From: Bacteroidia bacterium | Lineage (GTDB): Bacteria; Bacteroidota; Bacteroidia; DATLTG01 | DNA length: 49,633 nucleotides | Assembly: GCA_039924845.1 (NCBI GenBank) | Contig: JBDTAC010000018.1 | Location: 1-49,633, forward strand | Direction of reading: 5' to 3' | In this document: piece by piece, positions 30,890 through 42,572 of the stretch | Position numbering within the stretch: the first letter of the stretch is position 1 | How the letters are laid out: every line of letters starts with the position of its first letter | Position numbers and translations under genes: made by a program | The notes under the pieces: generated by a model | The model's input: only the letters and a program-made list of their open reading frames with translations | Databases searched by the model: none | What the model was told of the DNA's origin: nothing

Positions 30890-33800
30890 ATGAAAAAAGC
30901 AACTGTACTCCTTTCTATCCTTCTATCTGTAATATACACTACTTTGCTGGCACAGCCTGGTAAAAGCGGGGCTTTCACTGTTTCGACAGCCAATACCATT
31001 GTGAATGAATATACCACACTTACTGCAAATGCTACTGCCGGAAATACTTCTATAACCGTTGCAAATAGTGCTTTAAATAGTAATGGACGATTTTCTTCTT
31101 CGCTTTCTCAAGGCGATTTAATTATGATTATTCAAATGCAAGGCGCGAGTATTGAAGGCACATTGCAAGCTCCTCCCGGCAATCCTATTGGACTACCTAT
31201 TGATAGCACATGGGGATCAATAACAGCTTATAACAATGCTGGAAACAATGAGTTTTTACAAGTAACAAGTGTACCAAATGGCACTACCATCAACGTAAGT
31301 TGTGGATTAAAAAATAATTATACTGTTACTGGAAAAGTACAAATTGTACGCATGCCAAGGTATTCTACGTTAACAATAAACAACGCCTCCGTGCTCTCCT
31401 GCGATCCATGGAACAGCAAAACAGGAGGTATTGTTGCGGTAGAGGTTTCAGGCAATACAACGATTAATACAGGTGGAGAAATTAACACAACTGCTTTAGG
31501 TTTTAGAGGTGGTTTGATTCCGAGCGATTCATCCGTTTATGGAATTGTTTTATACGCTTGTCAGAGTACGAATGTAGGAGGTGCGAGAGGAGAAGGCATT
31601 GCTGGTTACGCCAGTGATTACGACCCCAATGGTGGCAGATATTGCAGAGGTGCCGCAGCGAATGCAGGTGGTGGTGGTAATTCTTGGAATTGTGGCGGTG
31701 GTGGCGGTTCTAACTCTGGTAATATTGCACAGTGGTCTGGAAAAGGAAATCCAGATATATCAACAGCTAATTATATTGCAGCTTGGAATTTGGAATATTT
31801 CAATTTTTCTTCACTTACTTCTTCTGGAGGTGGTCGCGGAGGTTATTCATGGTCAGGATCGAACCAAAATCCGATTACGATGGGTCCGAGTAATTCAAAC
31901 TGGGGAGGAGATCAGAGAAGGCCTAATGGAGGATTAGGTGGAAGACCACTTGATTATTCCACAGGAAGATTGTTTTTAGGCGGTGGCGGTGGCGCAGGAC
32001 ACCAAGACAATAATTTTGGAGGTGTTGGAGGATATGGCGGTGGAATGATTTATGTACTTAGTTACGGGCAAGTATTAGGTGGCGGACAAATTATTTCGGA
32101 TGGAGCCAATGGACAAAATGCACAAGGAAATCCAGCATTTGGTTCTTACGCAGGTCAAGATGGAGCAGGTGGTGCAGGTGGTGGTGGAACAATTATAATC
32201 CAGTCAACTGGTACAATTGCTGGAGGAATTAGCGTTCATGCGGATGGAGGAACGGGAGGAAATCAAGTTATCTCAAAAAGTGGGACTTTTTTCGGATCGG
32301 TAAAAGAAGCAGAAGGTCCTGGCGGCGGTGGTGGTGGTGGCTATATTGCCACAACAAATGCAGTTACGGAAACAGTAGCGGGTGGTGCAAACGGTACAAC
32401 CAATTCTCCTCCTTTGGCACAATTTCCGCCAAATGGTGCTACGAAAGGCGGAGCAGGTATTATCAGTGTTATTAGTACCTATGCCATTACAGCGGATGAT
32501 ACTACAATATGCTCTGGAAATACAGTAACACTTACCGCGAAAGTAACAGGAACTTTACCTGTCGGAACTTCTGTAGCTTGGTTTACTACTACGGGAACAG
32601 AAATTACAACAGGCTTAAACTATACTCCTTCTCCTGCCTTGACAGTTACTACTACATTTTACGTAGGTTCTTGTCCAGGAACAAATATGATTCCTGTAAC
32701 AATAACGGTCGGACCAACTGCAAATACTACTATTACACCTGTTGGTCCATTCTGTCTTAGCTCGCCTGTTATTAATTTAACAGCTGCAACAAACGGTGGA
32801 ACATGGTCTGGGACCGGAATCACCAATACCTCAAATGGTACTTTTAATCCTGCTACAGCAGGCGTTGGTTCTCATATTATTAAATATAAAATATCAGGAG
32901 CTTGTGCAGATTCAAGTACTACAACGATTGTAGTCAATTCATCTGCCAATACAACAATTACACCTGCTGGACCGTTTTGTACCAATTCTCCAATTCTCAA
33001 TTTAACCGCAGCTACAAGCGGTGGAATATGGTCTGGAACTGGAATTACAAGTTCGACCAATGGCACATTTAATCCTGCCACAGCAGGAGTTGGATCATTT
33101 GTTATTAAATATAAAATAGGAGGAGCTTGTGCAGATTCAAGTACCACAACTATTATAGTAAATGCTGTTCCAAATACAACTATTACACCTGTTGGTCCAT
33201 TCTGTCTTAGCTCGCCTGTTATTAATTTAACAGCTGCTACAAACGGTGGAATATGGTCTGGTACTGGAATTACCAATACCTCAAATGGCACTTTTAATCC
33301 TGCTACAGCAGGCGTTGGTTCTCATATTATTAAATATAAAATATCAGGTGCTTGTGCAGATTCAAGTACCACAACGATTGTAGTCAATTCATCTGCGAAT
33401 ACAACCATTACACCTGCAGGTCCATTTTGTACCAATTCTCCAGTTCTCAATTTAACCGCTGCTACAAGTGGTGGAATATGGTCTGGGACTGGAATTACAA
33501 ATACCGCGAACGGCACCTTTAATCCTGCCACAGCGGGAGTTGGATCATTCGTTATTAAATATAAAATAGGTGGAACTTGTGCAGATTCGAGTACTACAAC
33601 AATTGTAGTAAATGCTGTTCCAAATACGAGCATTACACCTGCTGGACCATTTTGCCTTAGCTCGCCTGCCATTAATTTAACTGCTGCTACAAGCGGTGGA
33701 ACATGGTCTGGTACTGGAATCACCAATTCAACGAATGGAACCTTTAATCCTGCTACAGCAGGCGTTGGTTCTTATACCATTAAATATATAATTTCAGGAG

Positions 33801-35071
33801 CGTGTCCAGATTCAAGTACTACAACGATTGTAGTCAATTCATCTGCGAATACAACCATTACACCTGCCGGACCGTTTTGTTCAGATGCTTCTGCTATTAA
33901 TTTAACTGCCGCTACAAGCGGTGGAATATGGTCTGGGACTGGAATCACCAATACAGCGAATGGCACCTTTAATCCTGCTACAGCAGGCGCTGGCTCATTT
34001 GTTATTAAATATAAAATTTCAGGAGCGTGTGCAGATTCGAGCACTACAACAATTGTGGTAAATGCCGTTCCTAATACAACTATTAATGCAGTAGGAAATT
34101 TATGTACAAACGGTTCTTCAGTTAATTTAACTGCTGTAACACCCGGTGGAACATGGTCTGGAACAGGAATTACAAACACGTCTACAGGAGTATTTAACCC
34201 TTCTGTATCTGGAGCAGGAACCTTTACGATTACGTATAAAATAGGTGGCGCTTGCCCCGATTCGAGTATCACAACCATCACAGTTAGTCAAACACCTGTG
34301 GTTACTTTTAGCGTTTCTCCAACTTCTGGTTGTGCGCCGCTTTGTGTCAATTTTACAGATAATTCTGTTGGAAGTTGTACCTCAATTAATTGGACTTTTG
34401 GAGATGGCAATTCCTCTTCCAGTACCAATCCTTCGCATTGTTATTCTTCCGCTGGAGCGTATGATGTAACAATGACTTGTAACAATAACGGTTGCATCGG
34501 AACTAAAACAATTGATTCTATGGTTACCGTTAGTCCTTCACCGATAGCCAGCTTTACAATGAATCCTACTGGCGATGTATTGCCAAATACAACGGTCAAC
34601 TTCACAAATACTTCAACGGCAGGAAGTACCATTACTTGGAATTTTGGCGATCCTCTTTCTGGAGCACAAAATAATTCTATCCTTTCTTCTCCAATGCACA
34701 CGTATGCAGATACTGGAAGTTATTGCGTTACTCTTATCGCGCAAGCGGGCGGATGCACCGACAGCGTTAAACAATGTTTTGAAGTTATTGGACAAATTTC
34801 GCTAAACATTCCCAATGCTTTTACGCCTAATGGCGATGGTAAAAATGATTTGTTCTTTATAAGGACAACAGGAATCGTGAGTATGACCTGTGATATTTTC
34901 GATCGCTGGGGCATAAAAATTTACACCTTAAATGGCATTGGCGCAACTTGGAACGGACTTACCACAAGTGGAAACAAAGCCAATGCAGGAACCTATTATT
35001 ACATGCTGAAAGCCACTGGTGTCAATGGTACTGTTAAACAGGAAAAAGGATTTGTGGAATTAATTCGATAG
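30890..35071 (+). CDS. Large repeat adhesin with PKD domains and T9SS type B sorting domain
   Basis: A 1393-residue surface protein. After a signal peptide (ATVLLSILLSVIYTTLLAQ) comes a ~500-residue glycine-rich region (GGGGNSWNCGGGGGSNSG, GGGGGAGHQDNNFGGVGGYGGG and others) of beta-helix style. There follows one Ig-like module (ADDTTICSGNTVTLTAKV) and seven tandem 75-residue repeats (encoded at 32723-34297), each with N-T-T-I-T-P-x-G-P-F-C, GGxWSGTGITN and CADSSTTTIVVN. Two PKD-like domains (TPVVTFSVSPTSGCAPL ... WTFGDGN; SPIASFTMNPTGD ... WNFGDP) precede a C-terminal CHU_C/type B sorting domain (IPNAFTPNGDGKNDLFFIR ... ATWNGLTTSGNKANAGTYYYMLKATG). Probably a cell-surface adhesin. It contains no A/T palindrome. 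Confidence 0.9.
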   Translation: MKKATVLLSILLSVIYTTLLAQPGKSGAFTVSTANTIVNEYTTLTANATAGNTSITVANSALNSNGRFSSSLSQGDLIMIIQMQGASIEGTLQAPPGNPIGLPIDSTWGSITAYNNAGNNEFLQVTSVPNGTTINVSCGLKNNYTVTGKVQIVRMPRYSTLTINNASVLSCDPWNSKTGGIVAVEVSGNTTINTGGEINTTALGFRGGLIPSDSSVYGIVLYACQSTNVGGARGEGIAGYASDYDPNGGRYCRGAAANAGGGGNSWNCGGGGGSNSGNIAQWSGKGNPDISTANYIAAWNLEYFNFSSLTSSGGGRGGYSWSGSNQNPITMGPSNSNWGGDQRRPNGGLGGRPLDYSTGRLFLGGGGGAGHQDNNFGGVGGYGGGMIYVLSYGQVLGGGQIISDGANGQNAQGNPAFGSYAGQDGAGGAGGGGTIIIQSTGTIAGGISVHADGGTGGNQVISKSGTFFGSVKEAEGPGGGGGGGYIATTNAVTETVAGGANGTTNSPPLAQFPPNGATKGGAGIISVISTYAITADDTTICSGNTVTLTAKVTGTLPVGTSVAWFTTTGTEITTGLNYTPSPALTVTTTFYVGSCPGTNMIPVTITVGPTANTTITPVGPFCLSSPVINLTAATNGGTWSGTGITNTSNGTFNPATAGVGSHIIKYKISGACADSSTTTIVVNSSANTTITPAGPFCTNSPILNLTAATSGGIWSGTGITSSTNGTFNPATAGVGSFVIKYKIGGACADSSTTTIIVNAVPNTTITPVGPFCLSSPVINLTAATNGGIWSGTGITNTSNGTFNPATAGVGSHIIKYKISGACADSSTTTIVVNSSANTTITPAGPFCTNSPVLNLTAATSGGIWSGTGITNTANGTFNPATAGVGSFVIKYKIGGTCADSSTTTIVVNAVPNTSITPAGPFCLSSPAINLTAATSGGTWSGTGITNSTNGTFNPATAGVGSYTIKYIISGACPDSSTTTIVVNSSANTTITPAGPFCSDASAINLTAATSGGIWSGTGITNTANGTFNPATAGAGSFVIKYKISGACADSSTTTIVVNAVPNTTINAVGNLCTNGSSVNLTAVTPGGTWSGTGITNTSTGVFNPSVSGAGTFTITYKIGGACPDSSITTITVSQTPVVTFSVSPTSGCAPLCVNFTDNSVGSCTSINWTFGDGNSSSSTNPSHCYSSAGAYDVTMTCNNNGCIGTKTIDSMVTVSPSPIASFTMNPTGDVLPNTTVNFTNTSTAGSTITWNFGDPLSGAQNNSILSSPMHTYADTGSYCVTLIAQAGGCTDSVKQCFEVIGQISLNIPNAFTPNGDGKNDLFFIRTTGIVSMTCDIFDRWGIKIYTLNGIGATWNGLTTSGNKANAGTYYYMLKATGVNGTVKQEKGFVELIR
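32723..34297 (+). repeat. Seven 225-base tandem repeats in the adhesin gene
   Basis: Units begin at 32723, 32948, 33173, 33398, 33623, 33848 and 34073. The first six are very alike and alternate between two subtypes (units 1,3,5 with PFCLSSP, units 2,4 with PFCTNSP; unit 6 is related to the even type); unit 7 is the most divergent. The alternation means the growing unit was a 450-base pair. Confidence 0.88.
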
Positions 35072-35244: not shown

Positions 35245-35310
35245 CAAAAAAATAATTTTTCAAATGTGTTTTTCAAACATAAAATAATCTCTTCCAAAAA
35301 ATAATTTTTC
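35245..35310 (+). repeat. Two A/T palindromes upstream of the desaturase gene
   Basis: Copies at 35245-35261 (C-A7-TAA-T5-C) and 35295-35310 (C-A6-TAA-T5-C), 50 bases apart. Both lie upstream of the promoter. Confidence 0.7.
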
Positions 35311-35433: not shown

Positions 35434-36165
35434 ATGATTATATTAATATTTTTTCTGTCGCATTGGTTTTTATCATTGTTTTTTCAAACATTTTTTTTGC
35501 ACCGATATGCGTCGCATAAAATGTTTACAATGAGCAAAGGTTGGGAACGTTTTTTCTATTTTATGACGTTCATCACGCAAGGTTCTTCCTTCCTAAATCC
35601 TCGTGCTTACGCGATTATGCACCGCATGCATCACGCTTACAGCGACACAAAAAAAGATCCGCATTCACCCCATTTCTTTAAAGATGTTTTCGGAATGATG
35701 TGGGAAACAAAGAAAATTTATTTTGATTACGTCATGCACAAAATTGAGCCAGACAAAGCTTTTCAGGGTAATTATCCGGAATGGCCGCTTATTGATAAAA
35801 TTTCGGATATGTGGGTAACACGCATCGCTTTTGGAACTTTTTACACCTTGTTTTACATTCATTTCGCCACACATTGGTGGATGTTTTTGTTATTGCCGAT
35901 TCATTATTTAATGGGACCAATTCACGGAGCTATTGTAAATTGGTGCGGACACAAATACGGTTACAGCAATTTCGATAACGATGATCGTTCTAAAAATTCT
36001 TTGCCTTGGGATTTTTTAATGTTAGGTGAACTTTTCCAAAATAATCATCACAAAAGCCCGAACAGCTTGAATTTCGCTAAGAAATGGTTTGAATTCGATC
36101 CTTCGTACCCAGTTATAAGATTGCTCGGATTTTTGAAAATCATCAAAATTAGAAAAATAGAATAA
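35434..36165 (+). CDS. Fatty-acid (acyl-CoA/lipid) desaturase
   Basis: The 243-residue membrane enzyme has the three histidine boxes of di-iron desaturases: HRYASH (residues 23-28), HRMHH (63-67) and QNNHH near residue 205, in a four-helix membrane scaffold. It introduces a double bond, probably at delta-9, into a saturated acyl chain using O2. Short length is normal for the bacterial form. It opens the cluster 35434-42572; the double bond it makes would be the substrate for the Cfa-like methyltransferases downstream. Reverse orientation of neighbouring shadows was ignored. Confidence 0.88.
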
Positions 36166-36246
36166 TGATTCGTGCCGTCGTGCCGTTTTAACACTTAACT
36201 TTTGTGTTCAAAAAAACCTATTTTTACCTGATATAATTTTAGGTAA

Positions 36247-37038
36247 ATGACTCATCTTGTTTTCAAAATGCTTGGCTGCTCATTATTGGCAGCCTGTTTC
36301 GTGCTTTTTTTGGTTTGGTTGCTCCAAAAAAAACTCAAAAATGCTGGAATTGTAGATATTTTTTGGTCCTACAATTTTCCGATTATCGCACTCATTTATT
36401 TTTTTCTCGGAAACGGTTTTCAGCAACGAAAAATACTGATAATAATAATGGTTATTATATGGGGAGCACGACTCGGGACGTATTTACTAGTGCGTATTTT
36501 CAGTCATTTACATACGGAAGACGGACGTTACAAACAACTGCGCGAAGAATGGTCGCCAAATATAAATTTTCGCTTTTTTCTTTTCTTTCAGATACAAGCC
36601 ATTTCCAATGTCTTTTTGTCCATTCCTTTTTTAATTATTTGTATCAATCCCAATCCGAAAATTAATTTTTTAGAATATTTCGGAGCTTTACTTTGGATTA
36701 TTGCCATTATTGGCGAAAGTGTTGCAGACAGGCAACTGCAAGTCTTTAAAAACAATTTAGAAAACAAAGGAAAAGTGTGCGATAAAGGTTTGTGGAATTA
36801 TTCTCGTCATCCAAATTATTTTTTTGAATGGCTAATTTGGGTCAGTTATTTTGTGTTTGCATTAGGTTCGCCTTTCGGCTGGATTAGCATTATTTGTCCA
36901 CTTTCGATGCTATTTTTATTATTCAAAGTTACCGGAATTCCAATGACGGAAGAACAAAGTATTCGCTCGAAAGGCGATGCGTATCGAGCTTATCAGCAAA
37001 CAACAAGTTCATTTTTTCCACTTCCAAAAAGAAAATAA
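36247..37038 (+). CDS. DUF1295 membrane protein (steroid 5-alpha-reductase-like)
   Basis: A 263-residue protein with six or seven helices. The C-terminal half has the DUF1295 signature: GESVADRQLQVFKNNLENKGKVCDKGLWNYSRHPNYFFEWLIWVSYFVFALGSPFGW, including the SRHPNYFFE motif shared with steroid 5-alpha-reductases and isoprenylcysteine methyltransferases. Such proteins use NAD(P)H to reduce double bonds in lipids. Families of this kind recur beside cfa, FAD-oxidoreductase and DUF1365 genes in other bacteria, as here. Substrate unknown. Confidence 0.85.
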   Translation: MTHLVFKMLGCSLLAACFVLFLVWLLQKKLKNAGIVDIFWSYNFPIIALIYFFLGNGFQQRKILIIIMVIIWGARLGTYLLVRIFSHLHTEDGRYKQLREEWSPNINFRFFLFFQIQAISNVFLSIPFLIICINPNPKINFLEYFGALLWIIAIIGESVADRQLQVFKNNLENKGKVCDKGLWNYSRHPNYFFEWLIWVSYFVFALGSPFGWISIICPLSMLFLLFKVTGIPMTEEQSIRSKGDAYRAYQQTTSSFFPLPKRK

Positions 37039-37082
37039 AATCCACTTCGTCCTAATATTCGTATCTAAGAAAAACTTTTTAT

Positions 37083-38114
37083 ATGTGGTATAATTCTTTG
37101 CTCGAAAAAAATTTAATTCCTGATTTTCTTATCCGAAAAGGCATTCGCGATTTGCTGAAACAACGTTTGCAAGAGGAAAACAAAGGCGATACCGAGCTTC
37201 AACAAGAACATTTTAAGCAATTAATTGAAGAATTAAAAAACAGCCCAATCGCCATAAATACAATCGATGCAAACGAACAACATTACGAAGTTCCAACGCG
37301 GTTTTACGAATTGTGTTTGGGCAAAAATTTAAAATACAGCAGCGGTTATTGGAAAAATAATGTGCGTGACATTGATCAATCGGAAGACGATATGTTGCAA
37401 CTAACTTGCGAAAGAGCTGATTTAAAAAATGGACAACATGTGTTGGAGTTAGGTTGTGGTTGGGGTTCTCTTTCTTTGTTTATGGCGCATAAATTTCCAG
37501 AAAGTAATTTTACGGTTGTCTCCAATTCCAATACGCAAAAACTACATATTGACGGAGAAGCAAAAAAGCGAAATATCCTTAATTTACAAGTGATAACAGC
37601 CGATATGAATGTGTTTGAAATTGATAAAACATTCCATCGAATTATATCTGTTGAAATGTTTGAGCACATGCGAAATTATGAAAAATTGCTCGAAAAAATT
37701 AATCGCTTTTTAAAAGCTGACGGAAAACTTTTCGTGCATATTTTCACACACAAAGAATATGCTTATAAATTTGAAGTGAAAGATGAAAGTGATTGGATGT
37801 CAAAATATTTTTTCACAGGCGGAATTATGCCGAGCGATCATCTTTTATTTTATTTCAATTCACATTTAAAGGTTTGTAAACATTGGCACGTAAACGGAAA
37901 GCATTATCAAAAAACGTCAGAGGCTTGGTTGCAAAATATGGATAAAAACCAAACCGAAATTTTAGCACTTTTTTCTAACACTTATGGAAAAGAAAATGCT
38001 TTGAAATGGATTGTTTATTGGCGCATTTTTTTCATGTCTTGTGCCGAATTATGGGGATTTAATAATGGCAACGAATGGTTGGTGAGCCATTATTTGTTGG
38101 AGAAAAATAGTTAA
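37083..38114 (+). CDS. SAM-dependent methyltransferase, Cfa/coclaurine N-methyltransferase-like
   Basis: A 343-residue class I methyltransferase with NEQHYEVPTRFYELCLGKNLKYSSGYW, the SAM loop VLELGCGWGSLSLFMA, ISVEMFEHMRNYEKLL and the C-terminal WRIFFMSCAELWGFNNGNEWLVSHYLLEK. It belongs to the cyclopropane synthase superfamily but resembles the plant coclaurine N-methyltransferase branch, and lacks the extra N-terminal domain of Cfa. A lipid acyl chain or amine could be the acceptor. It is distinct from the second, Cfa-type enzyme at 41334, so the cluster has two methyl transfer steps. Confidence 0.82.
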   Translation: MWYNSLLEKNLIPDFLIRKGIRDLLKQRLQEENKGDTELQQEHFKQLIEELKNSPIAINTIDANEQHYEVPTRFYELCLGKNLKYSSGYWKNNVRDIDQSEDDMLQLTCERADLKNGQHVLELGCGWGSLSLFMAHKFPESNFTVVSNSNTQKLHIDGEAKKRNILNLQVITADMNVFEIDKTFHRIISVEMFEHMRNYEKLLEKINRFLKADGKLFVHIFTHKEYAYKFEVKDESDWMSKYFFTGGIMPSDHLLFYFNSHLKVCKHWHVNGKHYQKTSEAWLQNMDKNQTEILALFSNTYGKENALKWIVYWRIFFMSCAELWGFNNGNEWLVSHYLLEKNS

Positions 38115-38130
38115 TTCAGAAAAATAAATT

Positions 38131-39264
38131 TTGGGAACAACATTACTAATTATTTATGTAAGCATTTTATTTCTCGCGTCATTGCTTGTTATTTTTAACG
38201 CACCCACTTATTTTTTATGGAAAGTTTCCATCGCGGTAACGGAGTTTGGAAACCTTATTTTTATTATACTGATATTTCCTGTTTGTATTCTCTTTTGTTT
38301 TCAAAAACATATTTCTGTTGAAGCTATTTACTTATTAATAGCAAGTGTTTTTTTACTTTCTTATCCTATTTTCAGTGCTTTTAAGATAAAAAAAACTATT
38401 TCGAAAAAATTAAAATTAGCCTTCGAAAAAGAAATCGCTTTATCATCAAAAATAATTTCTTTGAAAAAATATTTTTTCGGAACGCCTGTAAATGAAGTGT
38501 CTATAAAAACAATTACGTACAGCACAAAAGACGAAAAAAATTTACAACTCGATTTTTACGATTGCTCCTCTCTCACTCCATCGCCTTGCGTTGTAGTGAT
38601 TCATGGTGGTTCATGGAATAGCGGAGATAATAAACAAATTTCAGGATTAAATCATCGCTTGGCAAAAAAAGGATTTCAGGTAGCTGCTATTAATTATCGT
38701 TTAGCACCTGAAAATAAATTTCCGGCAGCCATTGAAGATACTAAAGAAGCGATTGATTTTCTGAAAAGAAATGCACAAGAATTAAATATGAATTCGTCTA
38801 ATCTTTTTTTACTCGGGCGTTCTTCGGGCGGTGAAATTGCGCTTTTAACCGCTTACACGAAAAAGGACGAAAATATAAAAGGAGTGATTTCCTTTTACGC
38901 TCCCGCAGATATGGTTTGGGGTTATTCGCTACCTGGAAATCCGTTGGTTATGGATTCCAGAAAAGTGTTGGAAGATTATATTGGCGGTACATTTGCAGCA
39001 CGCGAAAAAGATTTTTTTACTTCTTCGCCTATTGAATTTCTGGATGCAAAAACTCCACCGACTTTACTCATTCACGGAAAAAAAGATGTGTTGGTAGCTT
39101 ATCAACACAGCACACGACTTTCAAAAAAATTAACTGAAAATAACATTCCTCATTTTTTATTAAGCTTGCCTTGGGCAACACATGGCGCGGATTTTAACCC
39201 AAACGGATTGAGTGCGCAACTGAGCGATTACGCCATCGAACATTTCTTAAAATCATTTGCATGA
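38131..39264 (+). CDS. Membrane-anchored alpha/beta hydrolase (TTG start)
   Basis: A 377-residue protein. There is a stop codon two codons upstream and no ATG before the catalytic domain, so TTG 38131 is the best start. The first ~90 residues hold three hydrophobic helices. The catalytic domain has the oxyanion VVIHGGSWNSGD, RLAPENKFPAAIEDTKEAIDFL as in hormone-sensitive-lipase/esterase-type enzymes, the nucleophile GRSSGGE, and the acid and His in HGKKDVLVAYQHS and WATHGADF. This suits hydrolysis of lipid or acyl esters at the membrane. Its ATGA overlap with the next gene ties it to the cluster. One palindrome copy (38463-38478) encodes KKYFFG. Confidence 0.83.
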   Translation: MGTTLLIIYVSILFLASLLVIFNAPTYFLWKVSIAVTEFGNLIFIILIFPVCILFCFQKHISVEAIYLLIASVFLLSYPIFSAFKIKKTISKKLKLAFEKEIALSSKIISLKKYFFGTPVNEVSIKTITYSTKDEKNLQLDFYDCSSLTPSPCVVVIHGGSWNSGDNKQISGLNHRLAKKGFQVAAINYRLAPENKFPAAIEDTKEAIDFLKRNAQELNMNSSNLFLLGRSSGGEIALLTAYTKKDENIKGVISFYAPADMVWGYSLPGNPLVMDSRKVLEDYIGGTFAAREKDFFTSSPIEFLDAKTPPTLLIHGKKDVLVAYQHSTRLSKKLTENNIPHFLLSLPWATHGADFNPNGLSAQLSDYAIEHFLKSFA

Positions 39265-40514
39265 AAAAAATTGCCATTATAGGAACGGGAATTGCCGGAA
39301 TGGGTTGCGGACATTTATTGAAAGGAATTTTCGATATTACTTTCTTTGAACAGAACGATTACGTGGGCGGACACACGAACACTATAACAATAACTGAAGA
39401 CGGAAAAGACATTTTTATTGACACAGGATTTATGGTTTTCAATCACGTTACGTATCCGAATTTAACAGCTCTTTTTGCGGAATTAAATGTGCCAACAAAA
39501 AAAACAACAATGTCCTTTAGCGTTCAACACAAACCGACAAACTTAGAATATTGTGGTTCGAGTTTAAACGGTTTGTTTGCACAACGAAAAAATATTTTTT
39601 CTCCGCGCTTTATTAAAATGCTGTTGCAAATAAATCGCTTTAACGAAGAAAGTCTTAAACTACTTGATAGCAAAGATTCGGAACATATTACCTTGAAAGA
39701 ATATGCCGAAAGAAATGGCTATAAAAAAGATTTGTTGTACAAGTATTTAATTCCGATGAGTGCCGCAGTTTGGTCAACGCCTATTGATTCAATGCTTGAT
39801 TTTCCGGCTGCAACGCTTATTCGCTTTTTTAAAAACCATGGATTTCTGGGATTGAAAACGCAACATCAATGGTACACCGTTTGCAATGGCAGCAAATCTT
39901 ACAGAGATATTATAATGGCATCTTTCAAAAATAAAGTTTTCGTAAATAATGCGGTTGTAAAAGTAAAACGAGAAAACGATCAAGTTAAATTGACATTCAA
40001 AAATGGTGAAAATAAATTTTTTGATAAAGTTATTATTGCAGCTCACGCTAATCAGGCATTGAAAATACTGGAAAATCCAAGCGAAAATGAATTTCGTATA
40101 TTGAGTAATTTCAAGTACCAAAAAAATAAAGCTATTTTGCACACAGACGAATCGGTGATGCCAAAAAATAAAAAAATCTGGTCAGCTTGGAATTATCTAA
40201 TGGACGAAAAAAACAATCAAATTATGCCTTCAACCATTTATTACATGAACGCTTTGCAGCAAGTTTCGGACAAAAAAAATTATTTTGTTTCTATTAATGA
40301 TTCAGGAAATATCGCTGAAAATAAAATTCTGAAAACCATTGATTACGAACATCCTTTGTTTGATGTAGCTGCCATAAAGGCGCAAAAAGAGTTGTCGATT
40401 TTGAATCAAAGTGAACAAATTTATTTTTGTGGAAGTTATTTTAATTATGGTTTTCACGAAGATGCTTTTGCTTCAGCCATTCAAGTTGCAGACATTATTA
40501 AAAAAGAAAAATAA
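39261..40514 (+). CDS. FAD-dependent oxidoreductase (amine-oxidase family)
   Basis: The 417-residue protein begins with the FAD-binding IAIIGTGIAGMGCGHLL and continues with FFEQNDYVGGHTNTI, DTGFMVFNHVTYPNLTALFAELNVPTKKTTMSFSV and YLIPMSAAVWSTPIDSM, family segments of the NAD/FAD-binding proteins that travel with cfa and DUF1365. C-terminal IYFCGSYFNYGFHEDAFASAIQVADII closes the FAD site. In other bacteria, relatives oxidise or desaturate methylated acyl chains (branched, furan or cyclopropene fatty acids). Same reaction type is likely, but not proven. It overlaps the hydrolase gene as ATGA. Confidence 0.88.
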   Translation: MKKIAIIGTGIAGMGCGHLLKGIFDITFFEQNDYVGGHTNTITITEDGKDIFIDTGFMVFNHVTYPNLTALFAELNVPTKKTTMSFSVQHKPTNLEYCGSSLNGLFAQRKNIFSPRFIKMLLQINRFNEESLKLLDSKDSEHITLKEYAERNGYKKDLLYKYLIPMSAAVWSTPIDSMLDFPAATLIRFFKNHGFLGLKTQHQWYTVCNGSKSYRDIIMASFKNKVFVNNAVVKVKRENDQVKLTFKNGENKFFDKVIIAAHANQALKILENPSENEFRILSNFKYQKNKAILHTDESVMPKNKKIWSAWNYLMDEKNNQIMPSTIYYMNALQQVSDKKNYFVSINDSGNIAENKILKTIDYEHPLFDVAAIKAQKELSILNQSEQIYFCGSYFNYGFHEDAFASAIQVADIIKKEK

Positions 40515-40532
40515 AAGATTTATTTTAGCCAA

Positions 40533-41327
40533 ATGAACTCGTGTTTATATAAATGCAATGTAATGCACAACCGCATGGAACCTAAGCCAAATAGGTTTCA
40601 TTACAATGTGTTTATGTTTTATTTGGATTTAGATGAGATTGATTTTCTCAGCAAAAAATTGTTTTTTATAAGTCGAAATCGCTTTAACATTTTTAATTTT
40701 CGAGATAAAGATCATTTGCAATTACCAAAAGAAAATCCTGATAAAACAAAAAATACCAAACAACACATTTTAGCTTATTTAAAAGAAAATGGAATTGAAA
40801 ATGAGAACCTAAAAATAATGTTGCTCACTAATTTGTGCACCTTCGGATATCAATTTAATCCAGTTTCATTTTACTTCTGTTTCGATGCCGAAAACCAACC
40901 TATTTGTGCCGTTTCGGAAGTTGGAAATACATTTTTGGAAATGAAACCTTATTTTATCGGAACAGATAATTTAGAGAAAAATAAATTTCATTTGAATACA
41001 AAAAAGAACTTTTACGTTTCTCCTTTCATTGATTTAGACACTATTTTTGATTTTAATTTACAGATTCCGGATGAAAAATTAAACATCCGAATTGATGATT
41101 TTAAAAACGAAAAACGTATTTTTATCAGCACGCTTACTGGAAAAAAGAAAGTATTAAACAATCGAAATTTAATTTGGTATTCCATTCGATTTCCATTGAT
41201 AACAGTACAAATAATTGTATTAATACATTTTCATGCATTGGTTTTGTGGTTCAAAAAAATTAATTTTCATCGCAAAAAAGATTTTACGGAATTGCAACAA
41301 GGAGTTTATAAAACGCATAAAAAATAA
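40533..41327 (+). CDS. DUF1365 protein
   Basis: The 264-residue protein has the DUF1365 hallmarks: CNVMHNRMEPKPNRFHYNVFMFYLDLDEI, LLTNLCTFGYQFNPVSFYFCFDAENQPICAVSEVGNTF, KNFYVSPFI and LTGKK. The biochemical role of DUF1365 is not known. It is nearly always found between an FAD oxidoreductase like the preceding gene and a Cfa-type methyltransferase like the following gene, so a role in making the modified fatty acid is inferred. Confidence 0.88.
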   Translation: MNSCLYKCNVMHNRMEPKPNRFHYNVFMFYLDLDEIDFLSKKLFFISRNRFNIFNFRDKDHLQLPKENPDKTKNTKQHILAYLKENGIENENLKIMLLTNLCTFGYQFNPVSFYFCFDAENQPICAVSEVGNTFLEMKPYFIGTDNLEKNKFHLNTKKNFYVSPFIDLDTIFDFNLQIPDEKLNIRIDDFKNEKRIFISTLTGKKKVLNNRNLIWYSIRFPLITVQIIVLIHFHALVLWFKKINFHRKKDFTELQQGVYKTHKK

Positions 41328-41333
41328 ATCGCT

Positions 41334-42572
41334 ATGATAACAACTATCGCACTAAAAAAGGAACGTAGTTTTTACCGAACAATGATTTTAGAAGTACTCG
41401 GAAAAATGCCATACGGAAGACTCGAATTGTCGCTGCCGGATGGAGAAACCATCTACATTGGAAACGGAGAAAAAAACATACATGCGCAAGTAAATATTCG
41501 CGACAACCGATTTTTTAAACAATGTTTTTTGTTTGGCGACATTGGTTTTGGCGAATCTTATGTGAATGGTTATTGGGAAACTGACAACATTACCAATGTA
41601 ATTCGTTGGTTTTTGGTGAATGTAGAACACGCACCTTCAATGTCGGGTAGTAATTATAAATCTATTTTATTGAATCTTTTTAAGTTCGCGAACAAATTCA
41701 GTCATTTTTCGAAAGCCAATACAATCAATGGTTCTAAAGAGAACATACACGAACATTATGATTTGAGCAATGATTTTTTTAAATTATTTTTAGATAAAAC
41801 GATGACGTATTCGAGTGCTTATTTTACTTCTAAAAATCAATCTTTGGAAGAAGCTCAATTTGAAAAATACGACCGTTTGTGCCAACAATTAAAAATTACA
41901 GAAAACGATCACGTGCTTGAAATTGGTTCTGGCTGGGGCGGAAACGCCATTCACATTGCCAAAAATTATAATTGCAAAGTTACCACAGCCACTATTTCGG
42001 AAGAGCAATTTCAGTATACAACTGAAGCAATAAAACGTGAAAACTTAAGTGATAAAGTTACTGTTCTTTTAAAAGATTATCGTTTGATAGAAGGCAAATT
42101 CGATAAAATTGTCTCGATAGAAATGTTGGAAGCTGTTGGTCATAAATTTCTCGATGTGTATTTTAAAAAGTGTAATGATTTACTTAAAAAGGACGGTATT
42201 CTTGCTTTGCAAGTAATTACGTGTCCGGATGCGCGTTACGAACAATTGAAAAAAGGAATTGATTGGATTCAAAAATATATTTTTCCTGGTTCTTTATTGC
42301 CTTCGGTAGCTGTCATTAACAATGCCGTAAACGCCAGCAGTGATATGAGTTTGATTGATTTAAAAGACATCGGTTTGCATTATGCCGAAACGCTAAATCA
42401 ATGGAGCGAACGTTTTCATCACCAATTGGAAGAAGTGAAAAAATTAGGTTTCAACGATGCCTTTATCCGCAAATGGAATTATTATTTATCGTATTGCGAA
42501 GCGGCTTTCGAGATGCGTAACATTAGTGTGATGCAATTGGTTTACGCTCGCCCAAACAATCGGATTTATTAA
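41334..42572 (+). CDS. cfa: Cyclopropane-fatty-acyl-phospholipid synthase-type methyltransferase
   Basis: A 412-residue Cfa-family enzyme. The N-terminal domain (about residues 1-120: GRLELSLPDGETIYIGNGEKNIHAQVNIRDNRFFKQCFLFGDIGFGESYVNGYWE) precedes the catalytic part: NIHEHYDLSNDFFKLFLDKTMTYSSAYF, SAM loop VLEIGSGWGGNAIHIA, VSIEMLEAVGHKFLDVYFKKC and YIFPGSLLP. It moves a methyl(ene) group from SAM to a double bond in membrane phospholipid acyl chains. In clusters with FAD oxidoreductase and DUF1365 the product may be a methylated or furan acid and not a cyclopropane. Last gene of the cluster. Confidence 0.9.
   Translation: MITTIALKKERSFYRTMILEVLGKMPYGRLELSLPDGETIYIGNGEKNIHAQVNIRDNRFFKQCFLFGDIGFGESYVNGYWETDNITNVIRWFLVNVEHAPSMSGSNYKSILLNLFKFANKFSHFSKANTINGSKENIHEHYDLSNDFFKLFLDKTMTYSSAYFTSKNQSLEEAQFEKYDRLCQQLKITENDHVLEIGSGWGGNAIHIAKNYNCKVTTATISEEQFQYTTEAIKRENLSDKVTVLLKDYRLIEGKFDKIVSIEMLEAVGHKFLDVYFKKCNDLLKKDGILALQVITCPDARYEQLKKGIDWIQKYIFPGSLLPSVAVINNAVNASSDMSLIDLKDIGLHYAETLNQWSERFHHQLEEVKKLGFNDAFIRKWNYYLSYCEAAFEMRNISVMQLVYARPNNRIY

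Follow-up and report, generated by a model that had tools for sequence, protein, structure and literature searches.

A seven-gene operon in a 49,633-nucleotide stretch of DNA from a Bacteroidia bacterium (contig JBDTAC010000018.1 of assembly GCA_039924845.1; the whole stretch is here called the window) very probably makes dimethyl furan fatty acids of the membrane. Furan fatty acids are antioxidant membrane lipids, and the pathway to them was worked out in purple bacteria. That pathway is already known, and the window has it as a variant with the genes arranged together. What is new is a single operon outside Proteobacteria that includes the furan methyltransferase FufM, its own desaturase and a DUF1295 membrane protein, and the near-perfect tie between DUF1295 and FufM.

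An initial annotation had described seven co-directional genes with small gaps or overlaps between them. The seven open reading frames (ORFs) are present on the + strand at 35434-42572, and a Pfam search bears out all seven domain names that it gave. In gene order the intergenic distances are 81, 44, 16, -4 (an overlap), 18 and 6 bp. The genes, with their flavin adenine dinucleotide (FAD) or S-adenosylmethionine (SAM) dependence where relevant, are:

35434..36165, + strand: membrane fatty acid desaturase, 243 aa (FA_desaturase PF00487, 2.2e-14)
36247..37038, + strand: DUF1295 membrane protein with a reductase-like fold (PF06966, 8.9e-73; Steroid_dh, 1.7e-9)
37083..38114, + strand: FufM-type SAM methyltransferase, the second methyltransferase, predicted to methylate the furan (CMAS, 3.8e-38)
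38131..39264, + strand: membrane alpha/beta hydrolase with an HSL/BD-FAE domain, accessory, TTG start (BD-FAE/Abhydrolase_3, PF20434, 2.3e-46)
39261..40514, + strand: UfaD-type FAD-dependent desaturase, predicted to act on the methylated acyl chain (Amino_oxidase PF01593, 1e-20 / PF13450)
40533..41327, + strand: UfaO-type DUF1365 oxygenase, predicted to form the furan ring (PF07103, 5.4e-71)
41334..42572, + strand: UfaM-type SAM methyltransferase, predicted to carry out the first methylation (CMAS, 2.3e-86)

The UfaD, UfaO and UfaM core

In the characterized pathway UfaM methylates a cis-monounsaturated acyl chain, the FAD enzyme UfaD introduces a second, conjugated double bond, the DUF1365 protein UfaO is responsible for insertion of O2-derived oxygen to give the furan, and FufM puts a second methyl on the ring; all four reactions take place on phospholipid acyl chains and the oxygen source is O2 (PMC7380195). 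Counterparts of UfaM, UfaD and UfaO are all in the window, with ufaD adjoining ufaO across the 18-bp gap and the ufaM-type gene adjacent. The order ufaD-ufaO-ufaM is that of the locus numbering RPA2571-2570-2569 of Rhodopseudomonas palustris, and the window proteins are 33-44% identical to relatives in Mesorhizobium, Ancylobacter and Thalassospira. The relationship to the proteobacterial furan cluster that the initial annotation had drawn holds.

The closest PDB matches of the protein encoded at 41334 are cyclopropane synthases, and in a tree it groups with the UfaM-type proteins of Mesorhizobium, Ancylobacter and Thalassospira (clade support 0.77, with one divergent sequence from its own genome inside). 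At the bicarbonate ligands of Cfa, C139, E239, H266 and Y317 in Escherichia coli numbering, it has S, E, Q and Y, and so lacks the full ligand set. Q stands in for H266 in every one of the 91 UfaM-type sequences that cover this position; these sequences also have A for H240 and E for G236, with E239 and Y317 kept. These residues, and those at the corresponding sites of FufM, mark lineages and not product. The genome encodes a third CMAS-family methyltransferase (G000 contig C52:5387-6415, L169) that is unlinked and 27% identical to the window UfaM.

Seven residues of UfaO (H12, R14, N132, T133, K158, S163 and P164) are invariant in 63 sequences. Its structure model has a predicted local distance difference test (pLDDT) score of 94.7. 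A fold search for a known oxygenase gave no significant PDB match, the weak best hits being nitrobindin/lipocalin-like barrels.

Co-occurrence and gene order in Bacteroidia

Since the order to which the organism belongs holds only this genome, the comparison was made at class level with 247 sampled Bacteroidia genomes. UfaO is present in 27 of them, spanning 14 genera. FufM is found in every one of the 27 and in 2 of the 220 others (Fisher p ~5e-34, though related genomes are counted as independent and such p-values therefore overstate the evidence). UfaD is found in 26 of the 27 and in one other genome, and the lone miss is a genome that is 70% complete (G205).

The initial annotation had proposed looking for the same gene order in other Bacteroidota, and it proves to be conserved across Bacteroidia. 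A scan of genome contigs gave 80 named loci. In the fetched Bacteroidia loci the standard order is desaturase-DUF1295-FufM-(hydrolase)-UfaD-UfaO-UfaM, which is repeated in many families and is far from chance. Mucilaginibacter frigoritolerans (L126) has exactly the seven genes in order plus a DUF1475 gene. Verrucomicrobiota, for example Chthoniobacter flavus, have a desaturase followed by UfaD-UfaO-UfaM and then DUF1295-FufM and a hydrolase, and on a Mesorhizobium plasmid hydrolase-DUF1295-FufM and UfaD-UfaO-UfaM lie on opposite sides of a sigma/ChrR pair. In about 10 genomes desaturase-DUF1295-FufM or DUF1295-FufM is apart from UfaD-UfaO-UfaM, on other contigs or at other loci, and the operon therefore joins two modules.

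Several additional genes recur at these loci. In 18 of them (L034, L048, L126 and 15 others) an MFS_2, or sugar-symporter-like, gene is near ufaM and usually convergent with it; at a Thalassospira locus (L139) it directly follows ufaM, and ufaM of the window has no such neighbor. Several Bacteroidia clusters have a gene for a small DUF1475 membrane protein between the desaturase and DUF1295 genes, or before the latter (L126:5229-5564 by Pfam call; L040, L044, L046, L048, L076 and L082 by clustering or position). In one Bacteroidia family (L042, L047, L050, L054, L057, L058, L059) a Bcp-type peroxiredoxin-like gene is directly after ufaM, often with a clpX-like gene next, both named by eye; the former is compatible with a role in oxidative stress.

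FufM and its DUF1295 partner

The best PDB match of the protein encoded at 37083 is plant coclaurine N-methyltransferase (6gkv, E 1.6e-80). The Arabidopsis protein AT4G33110 is a member of this coclaurine-type family. It is 38% identical to FufM (PMC10940516). The 65 FufM-type sequences form a single monophyletic clade (support 1.0) in which H266, E239, H240 and Y317 are kept and F is at I268. By family and co-occurrence, rather than by direct alignment to RPA0924, the coclaurine-like gene is most likely FufM. The initial annotation had considered the product not known; with FufM as the most likely identity of the second methyltransferase, the product can be named as a dimethyl furan fatty acid.

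DUF1295 and FufM are a tight pair, being together at 65 of the 80 FufM loci. The close DUF1295 subfamily (E <=1e-85, a cut set once the hits had been seen to jump from 5e-88 to 3e-49) is present in 27 of 29 FufM-positive genomes and in 0 of 218 FufM-negative ones. The structure model (pLDDT 96) has sterol delta14-reductase, ICMT and steroid 5-alpha-reductase as its best PDB folds, none of them below E 0.001. DUF1295 may thus be a reductase-like partner of FufM. It is a candidate for a component of the dimethyl branch that has been missing so far: its close subfamily is confined in the sample to genomes that bear FufM, and in Chlamydomonas a DUF1295 gene shares a singlet-oxygen regulon with the other furan-gene homologues.

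The front desaturase and the membrane hydrolase

The desaturase has the His boxes HRYASH, HRMHH and QNNHH, and H23, H28, H63, H66, H67, H173, H205 and H206 are kept in at least 95% of an alignment of 51 members; in the Bacteroidota form the third box begins with Q instead of His. Most Bacteroidia clusters start with this gene, and a different subfamily fronts those of Verrucomicrobiota and Acinetobacter. The presence of the desaturase in 78 of the 247 genomes, including all 27 with UfaO, led to its rejection as a cluster-specific enzyme.

The hydrolase has about three N-terminal transmembrane segments and the features of an HSL-type enzyme, with an HGG oxyanion motif at 158-160 and a conserved triad of S231, D319 and H351. 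Close homologues are present in 5 of the 27 genomes with UfaO and in 3 of the 220 without it, where they are orphans. It was accordingly rejected as a strict marker of the pathway and is optional in the cluster. In Mesorhizobium DUF1295-FufM has an HSL-type hydrolase as a neighbor, and in Chthoniobacter the membrane form is close to FufM. The description of the desaturase and hydrolase as additions does not survive the Verrucomicrobiota, Acinetobacter, Mesorhizobium and Chthoniobacter cases, as neither is peculiar to this cluster.

Predicted pathway and alternatives

The membrane desaturase would supply a cis-monounsaturated acyl chain, and UfaM would move the methyl of SAM onto its double bond with migration of that bond. 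UfaD would then make a conjugated methyl-diene using O2, UfaO would add O2-derived oxygen and close the furan ring, and FufM would add the second ring methyl. The four steps from UfaM onward were shown experimentally in Rhodobacter sphaeroides and R. palustris (PMC7380195), and it is by analogy with these that they are predicted here. DUF1295 could partner FufM in a reductase-like role, and acyl release or turnover is a possible task of the hydrolase. Of the complete route of desaturation, methylation, oxidation, reduction and release that the initial annotation had envisaged, the whole is possible, its reduction and release steps being conjectural; its interpretation overall is partly supported. 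Mucilaginibacter species have 16:1w7c and iso-17:1 reported as major acids (PMC12074574), and for this reason a chain of C16:1 or iso-C17:1, and not C18:1, is likely in Bacteroidota. The furan acids would probably serve to scavenge singlet oxygen and peroxyl damage in the membrane.

Several points weigh against furan synthesis as described. The product of this organism is predicted from its genes, and presumed orthology to the R. sphaeroides and R. palustris proteins is argued from domains, the set of genes and relatives in Alphaproteobacteria. Proteins of the FufM family include plant N-methyltransferases, and the literature that was searched gave no report of furan acids from Bacteroidota. 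Deletion of three accessory operon genes of R. sphaeroides, RSP1087-1089, left furan synthesis unaffected (PMC7380195), and so the accessory genes may be dispensable or may act on turnover of the product and not on its synthesis.

A very unlikely alternative is that no furan forms and that the Cfa-type enzyme, assisted by the FAD protein in the manner of plant cyclopropane synthases, yields ordinary cyclopropane acids. Cotton GhCPS1, which has an N-terminal FAD oxidase domain and a Cfa domain, makes cyclopropane acids with Q at H266 and S at C139 as in the window UfaM (PMC3132707). Because of this, Q at H266 does not alone exclude cyclopropane synthesis by UfaM, and it was rejected as proof against it. 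However, E239, H266 and Y317 are all retained by characterized bacterial Cfa enzymes, yeast expressing Agrobacterium homologues of both the FAD protein and the Cfa enzyme produced no cyclopropane acids (PMC3132707), and a Halomonas UfaM in E. coli gave an intermediate of the furan pathway. Cyclopropane synthesis would also leave the near-perfect co-occurrence with UfaO and FufM unexplained. That FufM is in all UfaO-positive genomes, though often unlinked, argues for its dependence on the UfaO product, and this weighs against the unlikely case of two separate modules, in which the pathway ends at a monomethyl furan and the coclaurine-like enzyme and DUF1295 methylate another lipid. The separation of the two blocks in some 10 genomes and the tightness of the DUF1295-FufM pair on its own would suit such an arrangement; yet fufM of R. 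palustris is also unlinked and acts on the furan (PMC7380195).

A further proposal would add to dimethyl furan synthesis rather than replace it, and there is some slight chance that it is right. DUF1295 and the hydrolase would constitute a repair arm, DUF1295 reducing the reactive ene-dione left after the furan quenches singlet oxygen and the hydrolase cutting the spent chain from the lipid. The fold class of DUF1295 is that of sterol/steroid enone-reductases and it tracks FufM, the catalytic triad of the membrane-anchored hydrolase is intact, and the HSL-type hydrolase of Mesorhizobium adjoins DUF1295-FufM. Set against these are the lack of significance of the DUF1295 fold matches and the few UfaO-positive genomes with close hydrolase homologues, together with the orphans elsewhere. 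A self-contained furan fatty acid cycle, with its own desaturase, dimethyl furan synthesis and such a repair arm, is an outside prospect. If true, DUF1295, tied to FufM in Bacteroidota and present in an algal singlet-oxygen regulon, would be a lipid enone reductase that had gone unassigned until now. With dimethyl furan synthesis as the preferred reading, the acids are predicted in many Bacteroidota, including the cultured M. frigoritolerans ATCC BAA-1854.

Regulation and surroundings

In proteobacteria the furan genes are part of the core sigma-E/ChrR regulon. As the initial annotation had noted, no sigma/ChrR pair is adjacent to the operon, and the ChrR-type cupin (PF12973) was not found in the whole of the 99%-complete genome. 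With no ChrR anti-sigma cupin found, the operon would be outside a sigma-E/ChrR (ECF11) regulon, and the proposed scavenging would be without that control. The Bacteroidota promoter pattern is not in excess in the window, and the region upstream of the operon contains no perfect copy of it.

The upstream neighbor encodes a repetitive protein, and downstream are PyrF-like and RF-1-like ORFs (named by eye) on the opposite strand, which sets the seven genes apart as a single unit. The upstream protein (30890-35071, 1393 aa) looks secreted, with a C-terminal sorting-like domain and the repeat unit GPFCxxSPxINLTAATxGGxWSGTGI. A palindrome-like short repeat, TTGAAAAATTATTTTTT, has 41 copies with at most 2 mismatches, on other contigs too, where shuffling gives an expectation of 1. 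Its copies at window positions 35247, 35296, 38461 and 42638 (there are 37 others) flank the operon, with one inside the hydrolase gene.

Comparison with known systems

The R. sphaeroides and R. palustris pathway (Lemke 2020, PMC7380195) has the same four enzyme families, and ufaD-ufaO-ufaM of R. palustris are likewise adjacent. fufM is unlinked in R. palustris but inside the operon here, and the window operon differs from both in including the desaturase, DUF1295 and membrane hydrolase and in being without the sigma-E/ChrR pair. The window UfaM is of the same CMAS family as E. coli Cfa and shares E239 and Y317 with it, but has Q for H266, S for C139 and A for H240, and its gene has those of the FAD and DUF1365 proteins as neighbors.

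Another related set is on the Acinetobacter plasmid pYUSHP14-1 (NZ_CP090068), where genes for a desaturase, FAD enzyme, DUF1365 protein, Cfa-type enzyme, DUF1295 protein and FufM-type enzyme are in one row. It differs in its order of desaturase-UfaD-UfaO-UfaM-DUF1295-FufM, in its desaturase subfamily and in having no hydrolase, and photolyase and lipocalin genes are alongside.

Arabidopsis has the same functional set on lipid droplets, AtUFAMD1, AtUFAO1 and AtFUFM1/LIME1, including a coclaurine-type FufM; its genes are AT3G23510, AT1G30130 (UfaO, DUF1365) and AT4G33110 (FufM) (PMC10940516). There, in contrast to the window, UfaM and UfaD are fused (AT3G23510) and the genes are not in an operon; function in the plant was not assayed in that work. 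In Chlamydomonas the same gene set as that of the window operon is in the SAK1 regulon: singlet oxygen, via SAK1, induces CFA1, the coclaurine-methyltransferase-like CPLD27/CFA2 and one gene each for a DUF1365 and a DUF1295 protein (PMC4067076).

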